This document shows positions 40,862 to 47,874 of a stretch of 64,000 nucleotides of DNA, piece by piece. Each line of letters begins with the position of its first letter. Within the stretch, counting starts at the first letter, position 1. The notes under the pieces are model-generated. The model had not been told where the DNA came from and did no database searches. It saw only the letters and a program-made list of their open reading frames with translations. Source of the stretch: Ralstonia sp. UNC404CL21Col (GTDB lineage: Bacteria; Pseudomonadota; Gammaproteobacteria; Burkholderiales; Burkholderiaceae); assembly GCF_000620465.1 (NCBI RefSeq), contig NZ_JIBE01000004.1, positions 434,001-498,000 of the forward strand, given 5' to 3'. A program made the translations under genes and the position numbers.

Positions 40862-41287
40862 TCAGTTTGACGGGGGCGCAGTCCCGCGACGGGCGACGCG
40901 CACATCAACACGTTGCGGCGTCAACGCGCGCTCGAACACTGCGCGCGCGGCATGCGTCGTGCCGGTGCCGCACATGAATGCGTCGATGGCGGCAAAGCCG
41001 TGCTCGGGCCAGGTATGAATCGAAAGGTGCGACTCAGCGAGCAGCAACACGCCCGTCACGCCGCCCTGCTCGCCAACGGGCAAACCCGTGCGCACAGAAT
41101 CGAAGCGATGCAGGTGCGCATGCAGGATGGTCGCACCGAGCGCGTCGGCCGCATCGCGCAGCGCGGTTTCCAGCGCCGCCGCATCGCGCAGCAGTGCGGG
41201 TGCCACGCCGTAAAGATCGAGCAGAAGATGCTCGCCTACGGCGGCGGAGGCTTCCTCCGCAGACAGCGCTGCGTCGGTCCGCGTCAC
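40862..41287 (-). CDS. speD: S-adenosylmethionine decarboxylase, class 1B type
   Basis: A 141-residue proenzyme. Self-cleavage is expected between Glu85 and Ser86 in LAESHLSIHTWPEH; Ser86 becomes the pyruvoyl group. His91 and Cys106 stand at the family spacing (+5 and +20). It converts AdoMet to decarboxy-AdoMet, the aminopropyl donor. The GTG start overlaps the stop of the mini membrane protein gene by four bases (GTGA). Together with the aminopropyltransferase at 44675 it supplies a dedicated polyamine branch within this cluster. Confidence 0.92.
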   Translation of the reverse strand: MTRTDAALSAEEASAAVGEHLLLDLYGVAPALLRDAAALETALRDAADALGATILHAHLHRFDSVRTGLPVGEQGGVTGVLLLAESHLSIHTWPEHGFAAIDAFMCGTGTTHAARAVFERALTPQRVDVRVARRGTAPPSN

Positions 41288-41472
41288 TTGTGGCCCCCGC
41301 TGAAACCGCCGCCATAGCCGCTACCGCCCGAAGAACCGCCCCAATAGGACGACCCGCCCGTGCTACTGCTGCCGTACGACGGCGTGCGCGGTGCGGCAAA
41401 GCCGGCCTTCCAGTCCATATACGTCGCGCCGATCACCACGGCCACGGCATAGAGAACGAACCAGTTCTTCAT
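41284..41472 (-). CDS. Gly/Ser/Tyr-rich mini membrane protein
   Basis: A 62-residue product: one N-terminal hydrophobic segment (WFVLYAVAVVIGATYMDW) followed by a low-complexity tail rich in Gly, Ser and Tyr and ending GGHK. Its start overlaps the DUF4178 gene stop (ATGA) and its stop overlaps the speD start (GTGA), so all three are translationally coupled. Such short glycine-rich membrane proteins recur in DUF4178 neighbourhoods. The exact function is unknown; an anchoring or scaffold role is a guess. Confidence 0.75.
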   Translation of the reverse strand: MKNWFVLYAVAVVIGATYMDWKAGFAAPRTPSYGSSSTGGSSYWGGSSGGSGYGGGFSGGHK

Positions 41473-42917
41473 TCCCCGCCCCCAATCTTGGCGACCAGCC
41501 ATGCGGGCACCAGCAACAGCAGCGCCGCGAAGAACGTGATACCGAACACCGAGCCAGGCGCCATGAAAAACGGCACGAGGTTCAGCAGACCAAGCAGCAC
41601 GCAGGCGACCACCGCCACCGTCATGTAGTTCGACGACGATGCCTTGACGGGCTCGGCGACCACCTTGCCGAACCACGCCTTGATCTGCGCGGCGCTGACC
41701 GGCGTGCTCTTGGACCACGTCAGCTCATGCGCGTCGCTCTCCGCGGCGAGGCTTTCCTCGCCTGCGGTGTATTCGACTACGCGCGTCTGGTCGCCCGATT
41801 GGACACGCCAGTTGAAGGCGCCAGCGGCGTATGTCACGCGCGAGGTGTAATCCTCATCGCGGGCGTAGACCTTGCCGTCGAGCACCGCGGTGCGGCCGTC
41901 GCGCTGGGTGGGCCAGCGGTCGAGCACGTTGGCGCGGAACCAGCCGTCATCGGTTTCAACCATCCAGCTGAAACCGCGCTTGGGCGTGTAAAGCAGATAT
42001 TCGAACCACTCGCCGCCGCCGTCGACCACCGTGCGACGCATCACGCCGATCACCTGCCACTGCAGGCCGTCGATGAGCGCCTTGTCGCCCAGCTCGAGCG
42101 TGGTGGCGACCTGCGGCACCGAGCGTGCGCGCGCAATGATGTCGCCGCGCGGCGTGGCCGCATCGATGGCCGCGCCGCAGCCGGGGCACAGCACATGGCC
42201 GGTCACGCCGGGGCTGAACGCGATCGACGTGCCGCACTGCGGGCAATCGAGATTCGTCAGCTTGCCGGGCACGCGGCCGGCGGTTTCCTTGATCTCGGCG
42301 TCGGTGCGCAGCAGCTGGCACTTGAGCACGTCGAGCGTGGTGGCTTCACCCACGTAGAGCGTTGGCGCCGTACCGTCGGAGTAGTCCAGCGTGATGAAAG
42401 CGTCTTCTCTGCGGCCATCGGCCACGCGCGCATGCCAGCCTTCGCCCACGCGGAACGGCAATTCGCCCTGGCCCCCGGTGCAATCGGCTTCGCGTACGTC
42501 GGACAACACGTACTGCTTGCCCTCGGCGTCGTACAGCTGCCCCGGGCGCAGCGCCTCGAACGCGACCGCATTGGCGGGCGTGCCGCGCGCGAACGTCATC
42601 GTGACGTGCCCGGACGCTTCGGCGAGCCAGCCGTCGGTGCCGTCGTCGAACAGCACGTACCACTCGTTCCAGAAACCCGCGTCGTAGCGCAACTGGATGC
42701 GGCCGACGACGGTGAACGCCTTGTTCTTGTAGCGCCCGGTGGTGCCGATCTGCACGCGTGCATAGTCCTCGAGCACGGCAGACATCTTGCCGATGTCGGA
42801 AAGCGTCTCGCCGTCGCGCAGGAGCGTGCTTTTGCAGAAGCTGCACACCGCCATCACGGCCGCGGCAGACTTCAGTTCCACCGGCGCGCCACACGCCGGG
42901 CAGTTGGCATGAAACAT
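41469..42917 (-). CDS. DUF4178 protein with zinc ribbons and C-terminal membrane segments
   Basis: A 482-residue protein. It begins MFHANCPACGAPVELKS with a C-x-x-C ... C-x-x-C ribbon (Cys6, Cys9, then CSFC). A second ribbon follows in the middle (LDCPQCGTSIAF ... LCPGCGAAID). Two copies of the DUF4178 beta domain lie around residues 50-190 and 270-400. Two hydrophobic helices close the protein (VAVVACVLLGLLNLVPFFM and GITFFAALLLLVPAWLVAKI). It is inner-membrane bound with a large cytosolic part. A terminator separates it from the SPFH gene, and no ribosome site is evident. Confidence 0.85.
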   Translation of the reverse strand: MFHANCPACGAPVELKSAAAVMAVCSFCKSTLLRDGETLSDIGKMSAVLEDYARVQIGTTGRYKNKAFTVVGRIQLRYDAGFWNEWYVLFDDGTDGWLAEASGHVTMTFARGTPANAVAFEALRPGQLYDAEGKQYVLSDVREADCTGGQGELPFRVGEGWHARVADGRREDAFITLDYSDGTAPTLYVGEATTLDVLKCQLLRTDAEIKETAGRVPGKLTNLDCPQCGTSIAFSPGVTGHVLCPGCGAAIDAATPRGDIIARARSVPQVATTLELGDKALIDGLQWQVIGVMRRTVVDGGGEWFEYLLYTPKRGFSWMVETDDGWFRANVLDRWPTQRDGRTAVLDGKVYARDEDYTSRVTYAAGAFNWRVQSGDQTRVVEYTAGEESLAAESDAHELTWSKSTPVSAAQIKAWFGKVVAEPVKASSSNYMTVAVVACVLLGLLNLVPFFMAPGSVFGITFFAALLLLVPAWLVAKIGGGE

Positions 42918-42951
42918 GGTCAGGTCGTTCGATTGCGCAAAAGATTGCGCA

Positions 42952-42980
42952 GAAAAACGGGCGGCTTGCGGTGCCGCCCG
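42952..42980 (-). terminator. Rho-independent terminator inside the cluster
   Basis: CGGGCGGC (42958-42965) and GCCGCCCG (42973-42980) form a perfect 8-bp stem with a 7-base loop. Reading leftward it is followed by TTTTT. It lies between the SPFH gene stop (43006) and the DUF4178 start (42917), so the downstream half of the cluster is either expressed by read-through or from a promoter in the 35 bases that remain. Confidence 0.85.
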
Positions 42981-43005
42981 GTCATCCGGTCAGCGGGGCC
43001 GAAGC

Positions 43006-44049
43006 TCAGCCGCCGGTCAGCGCCTTGAGCACAGCAGCCTTGCCGGCATCAAAGTCGGCTTGCGTGATGAGGCCCTTGTCGAGCAGTTCCTTGAGCTTGG
43101 CCAGGCGCGCGGTGGGGTCGTCCGCTGCAGGAGCCGCGGGTGCGGCGGCAGCGGCAGGTTGAGCCGCCGCACCGCCGGCGTTGCCTTGCACCGCCGTGCG
43201 CAGGCTGTCGGCCATCGCCTGGCCCATCGCCAGGCCGGCTGCCAGGCCGGCGCCCGTGCCCGCGATGCCGCCTTCGTTGCGTGCGGCCAGCGGCAGCGAT
43301 TCGGCCGTCTGGTATTGCGTGAAGCGCTGCATGTCGCCGGTCATGTCCATGCTGATGCGGCGGTCCAGCGCGGCCTGCAGTTCGTCCGGCAGCGTGACGC
43401 TGGACACCTGGAAGCTGTCGAGCGCCAAGCCGTACTGCGTGAACTGCGGCAGCAGCGCCTCGCGCACCTTGTTCGACATCAGCATCTGGTTGGCGGCCAG
43501 GTCCAGGAACGGCACACCGGATTCGCCAAACGCCGTGGCCATCGCACCCATGATGACCGGGGCAAGTTGCGCCTCGACTTCATCCACGGTGTAGATGTCG
43601 CGCGTGCCGCTCACCTGCTGATAGAACAACTTCGGGTCGGCCACGTGGTAGGCGTACACGCCAAACGCGCGCAGGCGGATCATGCCGAAATCCTTGTCGC
43701 GCACCGTCACGGGCTGCGGCGTGCCCCAGCGGCGGCCGAGTTGCTGGCGCGTGCTGAAGTAGTAGACGTCGGACTTGAAGGGGGACTCGAACAGCTTGTC
43801 CCAGTTCTTCAGATACGTGAGAACGGGCAGCGTCTGCGTGGTCAGCTTGAAGGTGCCGGCGCTGAATACGTCGGCGATCTGGCCTTCGTTGACGAACATC
43901 GCCATCTGCGAGTCGCGCACGACCAGGGTGCCGCCGTTCTGGATTTCCATGTCCTGCATCGGATAGCGCCAGGCGAGCACGCCGTCTTCGCTTTCCGTCC
44001 ATTGCAGGATGTCGATGAACTGCTTCTTGATAAAACTGGACAGGCTCAC
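43006..44049 (-). CDS. SPFH / virion-core-like protein with SHOCT tail
   Basis: A 347-residue protein: SPFH (band-7-like) domain over about residues 25-230 (GTLVVRDSQMAMFVNEGQIADVFSAGTFKLTTQT ... VRDKDFGMIRLRAFGVYAYHVADP), a long Ala-rich linker, and a C-terminal SHOCT module LAKLKELLDKGLITQADFDAGKAAVL. It matches the YdjI/virion-core group. No signal peptide; it probably assembles at the membrane face. The GTG start has AAGGAG upstream. It is the second gene of the leftward cluster, 49 bases after DUF350, and is followed by an intrinsic terminator. Confidence 0.87.
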   Translation of the reverse strand: MSLSSFIKKQFIDILQWTESEDGVLAWRYPMQDMEIQNGGTLVVRDSQMAMFVNEGQIADVFSAGTFKLTTQTLPVLTYLKNWDKLFESPFKSDVYYFSTRQQLGRRWGTPQPVTVRDKDFGMIRLRAFGVYAYHVADPKLFYQQVSGTRDIYTVDEVEAQLAPVIMGAMATAFGESGVPFLDLAANQMLMSNKVREALLPQFTQYGLALDSFQVSSVTLPDELQAALDRRISMDMTGDMQRFTQYQTAESLPLAARNEGGIAGTGAGLAAGLAMGQAMADSLRTAVQGNAGGAAAQPAAAAAPAAPAADDPTARLAKLKELLDKGLITQADFDAGKAAVLKALTGG

Positions 44050-44098
44050 AGCAAACTCCTTCGCGATGATTCGCGGGGCAGGAACAATCAGGACAAGG

Positions 44099-44497
44099 TC
44101 AGGACAGGCACGCCGCGTTGATCACGCCCACGGCCAGCGCGCTCACGCCAAACAGCATACCGGCGGCGATATTGTTGTGCTCGATCTGCAAGCGGTAGTC
44201 CGGCATCAGCCGCGTAAGCACCAGAAAGACGACCAGTTGCACCACCGACGCCATCACCGCCCAGAACAGGAACGGCACCAGGCCATCGGCATGCGTGATG
44301 CTCGACGCGATGGTCAGCACGAAACCGAGCAGCGCCCCGGCCAGCGACAGCGCCGCGGCGATATTGCCTTCGCGGATCAGCTTGAACTCGTCATACGGCG
44401 TCAGGCGCAGGTAGACGAAGAAGAAGCCGGAAAACACCACGGCGCCCGCCAGCAGGTGCGAGGCATAGGCGATCACGGAAGCGGTCATGTCAGGCAT
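44099..44497 (-). CDS. DUF350 (YjfL-like) four-helix membrane protein
   Basis: A 132-residue inner-membrane protein with four hydrophobic helices. The landmarks FSGFFFVYLRLTPYDEFKLIREGNIAAALSLAGALLGF and HNNIAAGMLFGVSALAVGVINAAC match DUF350 / UPF0719. E. coli YjfL belongs to this family and sits beside a PspA homologue (YjfJ) and a glutathionylspermidine-synthase-like ATP-grasp protein (YjfC), which supports a membrane and polyamine link. First gene of the leftward cluster; a TATAGT box on the minus strand at 44535-44530 may be its promoter. Confidence 0.85.
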   Translation of the reverse strand: MPDMTASVIAYASHLLAGAVVFSGFFFVYLRLTPYDEFKLIREGNIAAALSLAGALLGFVLTIASSITHADGLVPFLFWAVMASVVQLVVFLVLTRLMPDYRLQIEHNNIAAGMLFGVSALAVGVINAACLS

Positions 44498-44529
44498 GGG
44501 GAGGGGCCGTGCAGTACATAGGTGGCGCC

Positions 44530-44535
44530 ACTATA
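44530..44535 (-). promoter_or_regulatory. Putative -10 of the DUF350-SPFH cluster
   Basis: TATAGT on the minus strand, 33 bases upstream of the DUF350 start. The -35 region is weak. The 177-base gap with the divergent aminopropyltransferase holds no other clear signal. Confidence 0.35.
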
Positions 44536-44674
44536 GCGGCTGATGCGCCGCTTGCGTACCCCCCGATGCGGCCACGCAGTTGCCGGCTCGCCGGGAGGGA
44601 AAAAAGGCGGCACAATCGCGCTCGCCTTGGCATCCGCCCTTTGTTAACGCCCCTTCATTTTCCACCTTCGCAGC

Positions 44675-46252
44675 ATGTCGACGCCGCAGCCTGACGCCAC
44701 ATACGAACCCACGCAGCCTGCCGGCCGCGGCAATGCCCTGCTGGTCCTCGCCGTCTTCGTGGTGGCCTCGTGCGGGCTGGCGTACGAATTGATTGCCGGG
44801 GCATTGGCTTCGTACCTGCTGGGCGATTCCATCCTGCAGTTCTCTTCCATCATCGGCGCCTATCTGTTTGCCATGGGCATCGGCTCATGGCTCTCGCGCT
44901 ACGTGGCGGACGAAGCGCTGCTCGCCCGCTTTGTCGATCTGGAATTGCTGGTGGGACTGTTTGGCGGCGTGTCTGCGGCGGCACTGTTTGCGTTATTTGC
45001 GTTGGAATCGGCGCCGTTCCGGCTGGTGCTGTACGCGCTGGTGACGGTGATCGGCGTGCTGGTCGGCATGGAGATCCCGCTGGTGATGCGCATGCTGCAT
45101 CGCCGTCAGGCCAAGTTTTCCGATCTCGTCAGCCGCGTGCTGACGTTCGATTACCTTGGCGCGCTGGCGGTGTCGCTGTTGTTTCCGCTGGTACTGGCGC
45201 CGCGCCTGGGGCTGGTGCGTACCGGCTTCCTGTTCGGCCTGTTCAATACGGCGATTGCGGTCTGGACGCTATGGCACTTCCGCACCGAGCTAGCGCTCAC
45301 GGCACGTATGCGCACGGCGATGGCGTGGCGCGCCGGCGCGGTAGCGGCAGCATTGCTTGCGGGCTTTGGCGCATCGGACAAGCTCACGCATTGGTCGGAG
45401 CGCGCGCTTTTTGGCGACGAGATCATCCACGCGATTTCCTCGCCGTATCAGCGGCTGGTGGTGACGCGCTGGAAGGACGACCTGCGCCTGTACATCAACG
45501 GCAACCTGCAGTTTTCTTCGCGCGACGAATACCGCTATCACGAGGCGCTGGCGCTGCCCGCGCTGGAATCGGTGCGCGGTGCGCGGCGCGTGCTGGTGCT
45601 GGGCGGTGGTGACGGCCTCGCCCTGCGGCAGATCCTGAAATACCCGCAAATCGAGCACGTCACCCTGGTCGACCTAGACCCGCGCATGACGAACCTGTTC
45701 TCGCACGCGGAAGCGCTGGTCGCGCTCAATCAGCATGCGTTCAGCGACCCGCGTGTCACGGTGGTCAACGCCGATGCGGCGCAATGGATGCAGACTGCCA
45801 CCGACATGTTCGACGTGGCCATCGTCGATTTTCCGGACCCGTCCAACTTCAGCATCGGCAAGCTGTATTCGGTGCCGTTCTACCGGTTGCTGTCGCGCCA
45901 TGTGGCGGATACGGGCCTGGTCGTCATTCAAGCGACGTCGCCCTATTTCGCGCCGCGTTCGTACTGGTGTGTGGATGCGACGCTGAAGGAAGCCGGCTAT
46001 CGCACGTGGCCCTATCACGCGCTGGTGCCGTCGTTTGGCGAATGGGGCTTCATCCTGGCCGCACCGGGCCGCGCGGATTTCAAACCGCCCATGTCGTACC
46101 GCGTGCCGACGCGCTTCCTGGACGCCGACACCACGCACCAGATGTTCAGCTTCGCGCCCGACATGCCGCGCCCGCAGGTAGAACCGAACCGGCTGAACAA
46201 CCAATCGCTGGTGCGGTATTTCGAAGAAGACTGGCACGGCGTGCTGCGCTGA
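44675..46252 (+). CDS. Membrane-fused aminopropyltransferase (spermidine synthase-like)
   Basis: A 525-residue protein. The N-terminal half (about 20-240) has about seven hydrophobic helices (AVFVVASCGLAYELIAGALAS ... GIGSWLSRYVADE). The C-terminal half is a spermidine-synthase fold: VLVLGGGDGLALRQIL (GGGDG at 310-314), VDLDPRM for AdoMet binding, and VDFPDPSNFSIGKLYSVPFYR, with Asp385 and Asp388 of the catalytic loop. It should transfer aminopropyl from decarboxy-AdoMet to an amine at the membrane. Divergent from the DUF350 cluster; the downstream flavoprotein start overlaps its stop (TGATG). Confidence 0.9.
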   Translation: MSTPQPDATYEPTQPAGRGNALLVLAVFVVASCGLAYELIAGALASYLLGDSILQFSSIIGAYLFAMGIGSWLSRYVADEALLARFVDLELLVGLFGGVSAAALFALFALESAPFRLVLYALVTVIGVLVGMEIPLVMRMLHRRQAKFSDLVSRVLTFDYLGALAVSLLFPLVLAPRLGLVRTGFLFGLFNTAIAVWTLWHFRTELALTARMRTAMAWRAGAVAAALLAGFGASDKLTHWSERALFGDEIIHAISSPYQRLVVTRWKDDLRLYINGNLQFSSRDEYRYHEALALPALESVRGARRVLVLGGGDGLALRQILKYPQIEHVTLVDLDPRMTNLFSHAEALVALNQHAFSDPRVTVVNADAAQWMQTATDMFDVAIVDFPDPSNFSIGKLYSVPFYRLLSRHVADTGLVVIQATSPYFAPRSYWCVDATLKEAGYRTWPYHALVPSFGEWGFILAAPGRADFKPPMSYRVPTRFLDADTTHQMFSFAPDMPRPQVEPNRLNNQSLVRYFEEDWHGVLR

Positions 46253-47874
46253 TGGCAACGCGACGCAGCTTTCTTGTGGGTGCAGCTGCGGCCGGTGTGG
46301 CTGCGGCCGGTGCCGCTTCGTGGGCAGGCTTTCGCGCCTTTACCGAAATCACGCCCAACGTGCGCATGCCGGGCCAGGCTGCGGGCCATCGGCTGCGCGA
46401 CCTGCGCGCGCTGCCGACACCATCGGAAACGCGGCGCGTGGGCGTTGCCATTTGCGGCAGCGGCATCGGCGGATTGAGCTGTGCGTGGCGACTCGCAAAA
46501 AGCGGCCGGCGCGACGCAGTGGTCGTAGAAGGCCCGGAGCGCTATGGCAATGCCGCTGGCGGCGCGTTCGGTACGCAGCGCTTCCCGACGGGTGCGCATT
46601 ACCTGCCGCTGCCGTCGATGGAATCGACGCACGTGCGCGAGATGCTGGCCGACTTTGGCGTGATCGAGCGCGACCCGTTTGCCCTGCGCCCGACGTACGA
46701 CGAACGCGTGCTCGTTCACGCGCCCGATGAACGCTTGTGGCTCGGCAATCGCTGGCAAGACGGCTTTGTGCCGCATGAAGGCATTACCGAGGCGGAACGC
46801 GCCGAGCACACACGGTTCTTCGCCCACATCGACCGGCTGCGCCAGACCACCGGCGCCGACGGCCGCCGCGTCTTTGCCGTGCCGACGGCGCTCTCGTCCG
46901 CAGACCCGGCGTGGCGCGCGCTAGACGCACTCACCTTCCGCGACTGGCTGCACCGCGAGGGCTACCGCGCCGCCACGCTGCACTGGTATGCCGACTACTG
47001 CTGCCGCGACGATTACGGCGTCACCGCCGATCACGTTTCCGCCTGGGCCGGCATTGCCTATTTCGCCAGCCGAGGCGGCATGGCCAGCAATGCCGAACAA
47101 GGCACCGTGCTCACGTGGCCAGAGGGCCTGGACTGGATGGCGGAGCGGCTGTTCGAAGCCGCCGGCCTGAATAAACCCGGCCGCCTGCTGCCGGGCAGCG
47201 CCGCGCGCATCGGCACCACAACCGAGGCGGGCGCCCGCGTCTTCGCCGATGTGCTGCAAGCGGATGGCCGCGTCGTTCGGCTGCTGGCCGATCACGTGGT
47301 CAGCGCGATGCCGCTGCACGTTGCCAAACACATCGTCGACGGCTTTGACGTGCCCGACGCCGAGCTGCCCGAAACCGCGCCGTGGCTGCTCGCCAACCTG
47401 CTCATCGACGGCTTTCCGCCCGAACACGACGACACGCCGCTGGCGTGGGACAACGTGGTGTATCGCGGTACGGGGTTGGGTTATGTGGTGGCCAATCACC
47501 AGGACATCCGTGTTGGGCCGCCCGCGCAGAGCGTGTTCACCGCCTACGTGGCGCTGTCGGACATGACGCCAAAGGCGGCACGTGAATGGCTGCTGAAGGC
47601 ATCGCCGCAAACGCTGCTCGATCGCGCGCTGGCCGATCTGGATACCGTGTACGGCATCCGCCTGCGCACGCAGATCCGCCGCGCCGACCTGACGCTACGC
47701 GGCCATGCGATGGCGATTCCCACACCCGGTTTTCTCTCCCGACCGGGCATTGCGCGCTTGCGTGAAAGCGCCGGGCCGATCCACTACGCGCATGCGGACC
47801 TGTCCGGCTATTCGGTTTTTGAAGAAGCGGCGTGGTGGGGGGATCGTGCGGCGCGGCGCATTCTGGGCGGCTGA
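46252..47874 (+). CDS. Tat-type FAD-dependent oxidoreductase, amine-oxidase-like
   Basis: A 540-residue protein. It begins MATRRSFLVGAAAAGVAAAGAA, a twin-arginine-type export signal (R-R-S-F-L). The FAD dinucleotide motif VAICGSGIGGLSCAWRLA (GSGIGG at 69-74) is followed by a GGAFGTQRFPTGAHYL segment. The C-terminal region with HAMAIPTPGFLSRPGIARL contacts FAD. The fold resembles phytoene desaturase/amine oxidase. Given the coupled start after the aminopropyltransferase, the likely substrate is a polyamine or a polyamine-modified product in the periplasm. This is inference from context. Confidence 0.8.
   Translation: MATRRSFLVGAAAAGVAAAGAASWAGFRAFTEITPNVRMPGQAAGHRLRDLRALPTPSETRRVGVAICGSGIGGLSCAWRLAKSGRRDAVVVEGPERYGNAAGGAFGTQRFPTGAHYLPLPSMESTHVREMLADFGVIERDPFALRPTYDERVLVHAPDERLWLGNRWQDGFVPHEGITEAERAEHTRFFAHIDRLRQTTGADGRRVFAVPTALSSADPAWRALDALTFRDWLHREGYRAATLHWYADYCCRDDYGVTADHVSAWAGIAYFASRGGMASNAEQGTVLTWPEGLDWMAERLFEAAGLNKPGRLLPGSAARIGTTTEAGARVFADVLQADGRVVRLLADHVVSAMPLHVAKHIVDGFDVPDAELPETAPWLLANLLIDGFPPEHDDTPLAWDNVVYRGTGLGYVVANHQDIRVGPPAQSVFTAYVALSDMTPKAAREWLLKASPQTLLDRALADLDTVYGIRLRTQIRRADLTLRGHAMAIPTPGFLSRPGIARLRESAGPIHYAHADLSGYSVFEEAAWWGDRAARRILGG

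Follow-up and report, generated by a model that had tools for sequence, protein, structure and literature searches.

We analyze here a 64,000-nucleotide stretch of the genome of Ralstonia sp. UNC404CL21Col (contig NZ_JIBE01000004.1, positions 434,001 to 498,000; the window, with all coordinates counted from its first letter), and in it a cluster of seven genes at 40862-47874 that brings together an S-adenosylmethionine (AdoMet) decarboxylase, a membrane-fused aminopropyltransferase (APT), and several other membrane-associated proteins. One of these, a very small protein, ends in lysine, and a lysine-ended partner of this kind turns out to accompany the APT in nearly all the genomes in which we could read it. 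A previous sequence-only reading of this DNA had proposed one system that makes a polyamine at the membrane and uses it. The question we address is whether the APT might be acting on that lysine.

Five of the genes run leftward, on the minus strand. A DUF350 (YjfL-like) membrane protein (44099-44497; PF03994, 5e-35) is followed by an SPFH protein of the Band_7_1 type with a C-terminal SHOCT domain (43006-44049; PF13421, 5.8e-73; SHOCT, 4.3e-7), a DUF4178 protein with CxxC motifs, two DUF4178 stretches and a hydrophobic C-terminal segment (41469-42917; PF13785, 1.3e-28), a mini membrane protein of 62 amino acids with the C-terminus GGFSGGHK (41284-41472), and SpeD (40862-41287), the putative source of the aminopropyl donor. 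SpeD matches AdoMet_dc (PF02675, 6e-34) and scores 113.5 bits for the equivalog TIGR03330 (cut-off 75.65), which we take to be the class 1b AdoMet decarboxylase. On the plus strand lie the APT, of the PRK03612 type (44675-46252; NF002956, 1.3e-211; Spermine_synth, 1.3e-32), which scores 703.6 bits against a curated cut-off of 472 and whose closest named relative is from Ralstonia soli (97%), and a flavoprotein of the Tat (twin-arginine translocation) type in the flavin amine oxidase superfamily (46252-47874; NAD_binding_8, 2.2e-8; Amino_oxidase, 3.6e-6). Genes overlap by ATGA at DUF4178/mini, by GTGA at mini/SpeD, and by TGATG at APT/flavoprotein. The seven open reading frames (ORFs) are all open where the sequence-only reading placed them, with the strands and overlaps that it gave, and profiles match its families; the mini matches no Pfam model.

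A terminator-like hairpin lies between SPFH and DUF4178 (42958-42980, minus strand; eight G-C pairs, then five T), so that the leftward genes may form two transcription units. A scan of the region gives 8 terminator-like sites for 5.7 expected, and a promoter scan gives 0 matches for 1.1 expected.

The APT has seven predicted transmembrane segments (44732-45388, plus strand), defined by hydrophobicity and by a positive-inside profile across homologues, followed by the aminopropyltransferase domain (45407-46144). Among the best solved structures for the catalytic domain are thermospermine synthase 6bq2 (3e-46) and the Thermus thermophilus APT 1uir, both of which match the window APT in that domain only and have no membrane domain. 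Both of these enzymes act on free amines. The residues D284, E285, Y288, H289, D385, D388 and Y447 are invariant in 42 APT rows, and are presumably those lining the aminopropyl site in spermidine synthases; the motifs YHE, DxxDP, and the Tyr of PYH before PSFGEWG are conserved and align to both structures. In the comparison of the APT site that the earlier reading had suggested, the catalytic residues of spermidine synthase are kept. Positive-inside counts favor a C-terminal domain on the outside in every homologue (116/116 plus 5/5, that is, 121/121), from which the catalytic domain is predicted to lie outside the cytoplasm. Because the segments were defined on the protein of the window, and the second of them is the weakest, their parity is not certain.

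SpeD and the APT are the only members of their families that we find in the genome. At E <= 0.001, the single AdoMet_dc match is the SpeD of the cluster, and the single Spermine_synth match is its fused APT; a separate soluble SpeE is not found with that profile and threshold. The genome also counts a second match to NF002956, weaker than 1e-60.

The linkage between these gene families was measured in a class set of 151 genomes of the same class and in an order set of 200 genomes, both including the window's own genome. The APT scores above cut-off in 10 of the 151 and in only 32 of the 200, thus its distribution is patchy; within the genus it is present in 14 of 16 genomes. DUF4178 is found in four class-set genomes, all four among the ten with the APT (G139 falls below the DUF4178 cut-off), DUF350 in 22, eight of them among those ten, and the flavoprotein, using a single-protein query, in two, again both with the APT. 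The corresponding hypergeometric tails are 1e-5 for DUF4178, 2e-6 for DUF350, and 4e-3 for the flavoprotein. After removing the window's own genome (9 of 150 with the APT), DUF4178 (3/3, p = 1.5e-4) and DUF350 (7/21, p = 1.2e-5) stay linked, and the flavoprotein (1/1, p = 0.06) is not significant alone. The sequence-only reading had named chance-level co-occurrence as the result that would count against it, and what we observe is linkage above chance.

To look at gene order, we used 121 APT-anchored loci: the window, 40 fetched regions, and 80 named loci (the best 80 of 582), a sample in which close relatives are over-represented and many loci come from incomplete metagenome-assembled genomes (MAGs). 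All six families detected by hidden Markov models (HMMs) occur together in 50 of the 121 loci, where the HMMs were built iteratively on the same loci that they score. DUF4178 is present in 98 loci, of which 38 have it on the strand opposite to the APT and 60 on the APT's own strand. Ninety loci have the flavoprotein (E < 1e-40), and in 83 of them it shares the strand of the APT and is spaced from it as a neighboring gene would be; the flavoprotein HMM was seeded partly with over-long ORFs, and adjacency uses only matches below 1e-40. For the same reason weak flavoprotein matches, such as those in L091 and L142, were discounted as spurious. The named loci cover Pseudomonadota, Acidobacteriota, Gemmatimonadota, Bacteroidota, Spirochaetota, Myxococcota, Verrucomicrobiota, Elusimicrobiota, and others, and the gene order is recognizable in Burkholderiales, Rhodocyclales, Acidobacteriota, Gemmatimonadota, Bacteroidota, Spirochaetota and Myxococcota. 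Whether the order is kept was the other point that the sequence-only reading had asked about. These observations support that the gene families form one linked, membrane-associated system. As for layout, a Ralstonia relative (G371, loci L240 and L266) has about 5 kb of other DNA between the APT and DUF350, and its mini still ends in GGHK.

In most DUF4178 loci, the ORF 3′ of DUF4178 occupies the position of the window's mini and encodes a short protein made up of a single hydrophobic segment and a linker that varies, with Lys as the final residue. We took a blind census of this feature. For each locus we took the closest short ORF that contains a hydrophobic segment, whatever its last residue, and failing that the C-terminus of the DUF4178 protein itself; 97 of the 98 DUF4178 loci could be scored, as L069 is incomplete in the fetched DNA. 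The final residue is Lys in 89 of the 97 picks, preceded by His (HK) in 74 and by Gly (GK) in 15. These Lys-ended picks are 45 to 71 amino acids long, and they use both Lys codons (AAA in 46, AAG in 43). In the window, the conserved tail is the final two codons of the mini, His and Lys, at 41287-41292 on the minus strand. We considered, and rejected, that proteins in these loci simply tend to end in Lys: the background in the same DNA is 101 of 1480 (6.8%) for greedy, uncurated ORFs of at least 100 codons, and the SpeD, SPFH, DUF350 and flavoprotein families are not Lys-ended as a rule.

The eight blind misses all have an HK or GK tail on directed reading. The mini adjoins SpeD in L076, is fused to DUF4178 in L135, and lies further along the locus in L085 and L086; a GGK mini was skipped by the pick rule in L151, L158 and L167; and in L080 the tail is beside SpeD at another place in the genome. 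Fusion of the mini to the DUF4178 C-terminus, still HK-ended, occurs in seven loci (L079, L082, L132, L135, L164, L175 and L183). The tail of L069, read through L262, is HK. Within the genus, the mini ends in GGHK in all 13 APT genomes that can be read, window included; the contig of the fourteenth stops inside SPFH. Directed HK/GK searches, which gave the tails of L076, L080 and L135 among the eight misses, of L069, of the fusions, of the relocated DUF4178 genes described below, and of the late reads of the genus and of G038, were not blind; the census of the 97 picks is the one blind count.

The sequence-only reading had described a Gly/Ser/Tyr-rich mini membrane protein. The mini is real, and what is conserved in it is the terminal Lys and not the Gly/Ser run; we rejected that richness as its key feature, as it varies and there is little of it in the minis of the codirectional type. 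Of 83 minis, 56 carry more positive charge on the N-terminal flank than on the C-terminal one, 21 carry the same on both, and 6 carry less, and the mini tail is thus predicted to be outside the cytoplasm. With a loose pattern, eight minis show a lipobox-like site. In Solitalea (L169, 4485-7955), DUF4178, mini and DUF350 form a tandem duplicate in which both minis are HK-ended.

The Lys-ended partner extends beyond the standard locus. Fifteen type-1 genomes have no DUF4178 in the fetched APT locus, and for those we predicted a mini at another site. DUF4178 is found at another site in 14 of the 15, all but the genome of L171, and in 12 of the 14 an HK tail is beside it or on it; in the remaining two, the contig stops before the mini position. 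Some of these contigs are short, hence the distance between APT and DUF4178 may be small.

Moreover, the seven class-set APT genomes without a mini (L102, L103, L104, L105, L107, L108 and G056) have a lipoprotein-like protein upstream of the APT or of DUF350, ending in RGK, SGK or GGK. In G056, DUF350 is far from the APT; we predicted a Lys-ended lipoprotein there, and then found it. With the window (HK), G068 (HK) and G043 (TGK), a Lys-ended partner is present in 10 of 10 class-set APT genomes. In G038, where the APT match ends at the contig end and is below cut-off, the adjoining ORF ends in SSGK. An Alteromonas plasmid system with DUF4178 also has a lipoprotein ending in SGK, and the plasmid systems of Ensifer, Tritonibacter and Novosphingobium end in SGK, RVK and SHK, respectively. 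G143 and G001 have the APT and a Lys-ended lipoprotein and no match to DUF350, DUF4178 or the flavoprotein, which makes the APT and its Lys-ended partner the most constant pair. Ten of the minis and lipoproteins were compared to Pfam; none has a match above cut-off, and no family is common to them.

We propose, at about even odds, that the cluster is a protein-modifying system of the envelope, in which the APT would aminopropylate the terminal Lys of the mini and not free putrescine. SpeD would produce decarboxylated AdoMet, and the APT would move its aminopropyl group onto the side-chain amine of the C-terminal Lys. Since the butylamine arm of Lys is similar to an end of putrescine, it could be accepted by an APT active site of the ordinary kind. 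At the membrane, DUF4178, SPFH-SHOCT and DUF350 may hold the complex in place, deliver it or gate it, and the Tat-type flavoprotein may act later, on the exported modified tail. The gene linkage, the near-universal Lys-ended partner, and the conserved catalytic residues of the APT are observed; Lys as the acceptor, a reaction outside the cytoplasm, and all the accessory roles are what we infer from them. A role in envelope maintenance or stress, which the sequence-only reading had also offered, is a plausible guess from the context.

Several points weigh against Lys as the acceptor. L171 (8010-9548) is a fused APT standing alone in a MAG of Rhodanobacteraceae (G359) that has no DUF4178; near the APT we find no Lys-ended ORF that begins with a hydrophobic stretch, which makes this locus a real or apparent exception. 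The Tritonibacter ending (RVK) shows that the penultimate residue can vary. Homologous ends tend to share their last residues anyway: the last residue is Arg in 81 of 121 APTs (Lys in 3) and Gly in 41 of 68 SPFH proteins. What appears unusual here is that the same final residue is found on carriers that look unrelated. On a tree of 117 APT rows, HK versus GK changes only twice (shuffled mean about 23), with tail labels partly set by hand from the locus readings; co-inheritance alone can account for tail type tracking the APT tree, and contact between the two is not proven by it. Since the donor arises in the cytoplasm and the APT domain is predicted outside, the donor needs a route, or else the mini is modified before export; one might speculate that the donor crosses through the seven-segment domain or DUF350. 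Finally, G143 (99% complete) and the more fragmentary G308 (95%, in 680 contigs; the genome of L091) have the APT and no AdoMet_dc match; a check for the other class of AdoMet decarboxylase (class 2) was silent in its controls as well.

The chemistry is proposed from sequence, and the terminal Lys could also be a docking signal. In such a case, the terminal HK or GK would be a tail recognized by the APT or its complex, and the APT would act on another membrane target, for example, a lipid amine. In favor of docking, the tail is flexible and exposed at the end of a membrane-anchored protein, and a membrane-fused APT next to DUF350, another membrane protein, suits a lipid acceptor. But docking motifs usually require more than one fixed residue, and the carriers (the mini, the DUF4178 fusion, several lipoproteins) look unrelated and have chiefly the final Lys in common, which is what one expects of an acceptor residue. 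We regard docking as rather unlikely. If the tail served instead for metal binding, charge or stability, with a link to the cluster through assembly only, then the His that precedes Lys in 74 of the 89 Lys-ended blind picks would be accounted for, but in other lineages Gly or Val takes the place of His and the Lys is kept; we give this very little credence.

The synthesis of a small polyamine at the membrane (spermidine, aminopropyl-hydroxyputrescine, or a longer one), with the flavoprotein as a polyamine oxidase, is closest to what the sequence-only reading proposed. It draws on the SpeD and APT families with their conserved catalytic residues, on the resemblance of the flavoprotein to amine oxidases, SpdH included, and on a polyamine oxidase being named in a related variant of the operon (mSystems 2024, PMC11237479, in its account of that variant). 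It leaves the Lys-ended partner unexplained, and the related species R. pickettii is stated to produce putrescine and 2-hydroxyputrescine (PMC7857480). Also against it, fusions of this kind reportedly yield no spermidine and fail to complement speE (Li et al. 2019). We consider this reading improbable. From the statement on R. pickettii and the fused APT being the sole Spermine_synth match in the genome at E <= 0.001, a simple spermidine operon was set aside. Of the earlier proposal, one linked membrane-associated system stands, and the making and use of a polyamine is not supported and is now less likely. One could also attribute the Lys to the flavoprotein and not to the APT, by a reaction like that of lysyl oxidase on the exported tail. 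The flavoprotein is of the right superfamily and of the Tat type, and is predicted to share the tail's side of the membrane, but only two of the ten class-set APT genomes have it, while all ten have the Lys-ended partner; divergent flavoproteins there could escape the query. The chances of this explanation seem to us very slim.

The matches of the flavoprotein in the PDB are flavin amine oxidases, including SpdH (7d9j), which suggests that it is a distant relative of that family. Of the 86 homologues scored, 79 have a twin-arginine start (RRx-hydrophobic) and 39 a lipobox-like Cys. Flavin polyamine oxidases usually carry a Lys near the flavin; an alignment of 32 flavoprotein rows has no invariant or near-invariant Lys. 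The flavoprotein occurs in most DUF4178 systems and in none of the PspA or lipoprotein types examined. We rejected the flavoprotein as the core of the system, as it is found by query in only 2 of 151 class-set genomes and by HMM in 1 of the 9 other class-set APT loci.

The cluster itself is not new, since closely related neighborhoods are already published. PspA-CesT/Tir polyamine operons with a band-7/SHOCT variant have been described (mSystems 2024, PMC11237479). In the part of that paper dealing with these operons, the variant is grouped with the ATP-grasp group and features a band-7 domain fused to two transmembrane segments and SHOCT, an AdoMet decarboxylase, and a polyamine oxidase; DUF4247-type actinobacterial versions are also named, and the authors suggest monitoring of polyamine levels or "aminopropylation of other substrates." The cluster has the band-7 and SHOCT domains, the AdoMet decarboxylase, an oxidase-like gene and DUF350, but no ATP-grasp gene among the seven. 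Neither a Lys-ended mini nor protein modification is mentioned where the paper describes the PspA-CesT operons. Among the papers listed by literature searches on these families, no title or displayed abstract describes a Lys-ended partner, and within what could be searched the conserved partner appears to be undescribed.

Fusions of the same kind are also the subject of Li et al. 2019 (Biochem J 476:2579), which the mSystems paper cites. Fusions of a major facilitator superfamily (MFS) domain with spermidine synthase, accompanied by AdoMet decarboxylase and DUF350, reportedly gave neither spermidine nor complementation of speE, and a non-putrescine acceptor is said to have been proposed and not identified. 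The fused APT with SpeD is said to be widespread, also in bacteria that reportedly make no spermidine. To that same kind of enzyme, with SpeD and DUF350, we add a candidate for the acceptor. The Lys-ended mini, of roughly 6 kDa, is a specific candidate that can be tested by mass. If it is the acceptor, the outcome would be a kind of protein modification new to the envelope of bacteria, a function for the DUF4178/DUF350 systems, and a tie to the peptide-spermidine ligases of E. coli.

The E. coli systems YjfL-YjfM-YjfC and YgiB-YgiC have a similar composition, combining DUF350 (YjfL) with a partner that is exported or lipoprotein-like and an enzyme that uses a polyamine. YjfL does adjoin the PspA-family YjfJ and YjfC there, as the sequence-only reading stated. 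RefSeq names YgiC and YjfC "peptide--spermidine ligase." They differ from the cluster in that the enzyme is, as the operon descriptions in PMC11237479 also have it, an ATP-grasp ligase, and in that the partner ends in Gly-Gly. The DUF1190 partners, which lie beside the ATP-grasp ligases (E. coli L194, 745-1416, and L195, 488-1126; L225), end in SMGG (YgiB), HWGG (YjfM), and GFGG (a third DUF1190 protein), three sequences only. An ATP-grasp ligase needs a carboxylate and an APT needs an amine, so the Gly-Gly and Lys ends of the putative partners would both suit these enzymes.

These parallels lead us to a broader idea that we offer tentatively, and would place somewhat short of even chances: that a wide class of envelope systems puts polyamine-like groups on the C-terminus of a small exported partner. 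An extracytoplasmic fused APT would extend the C-terminal Lys in the DUF4178, PspA and lipoprotein types, and ATP-grasp enzymes of the YgiC/YjfC type would couple an amine to the C-terminal Gly-Gly. The product would be a membrane-tethered cationic tail, with a logic like that of hypusine but at the cell envelope.

Some other features were seen in related loci. Forms of DUF350 of about 70, 130 and 300 residues occur in the same setting (44099-44497 in the window, and related loci), which suggests that the size classes are one unit in differing copy number. TelA-family "toxic anion resistance" proteins are present in two divergent versions of the cluster (L190, 9009-10115; L101, 4833-6017). And a GNAT acetyltransferase is encoded directly upstream of the minimal lipoprotein-APT pair in L102 (5735-6571) and L104 (9854-10666).

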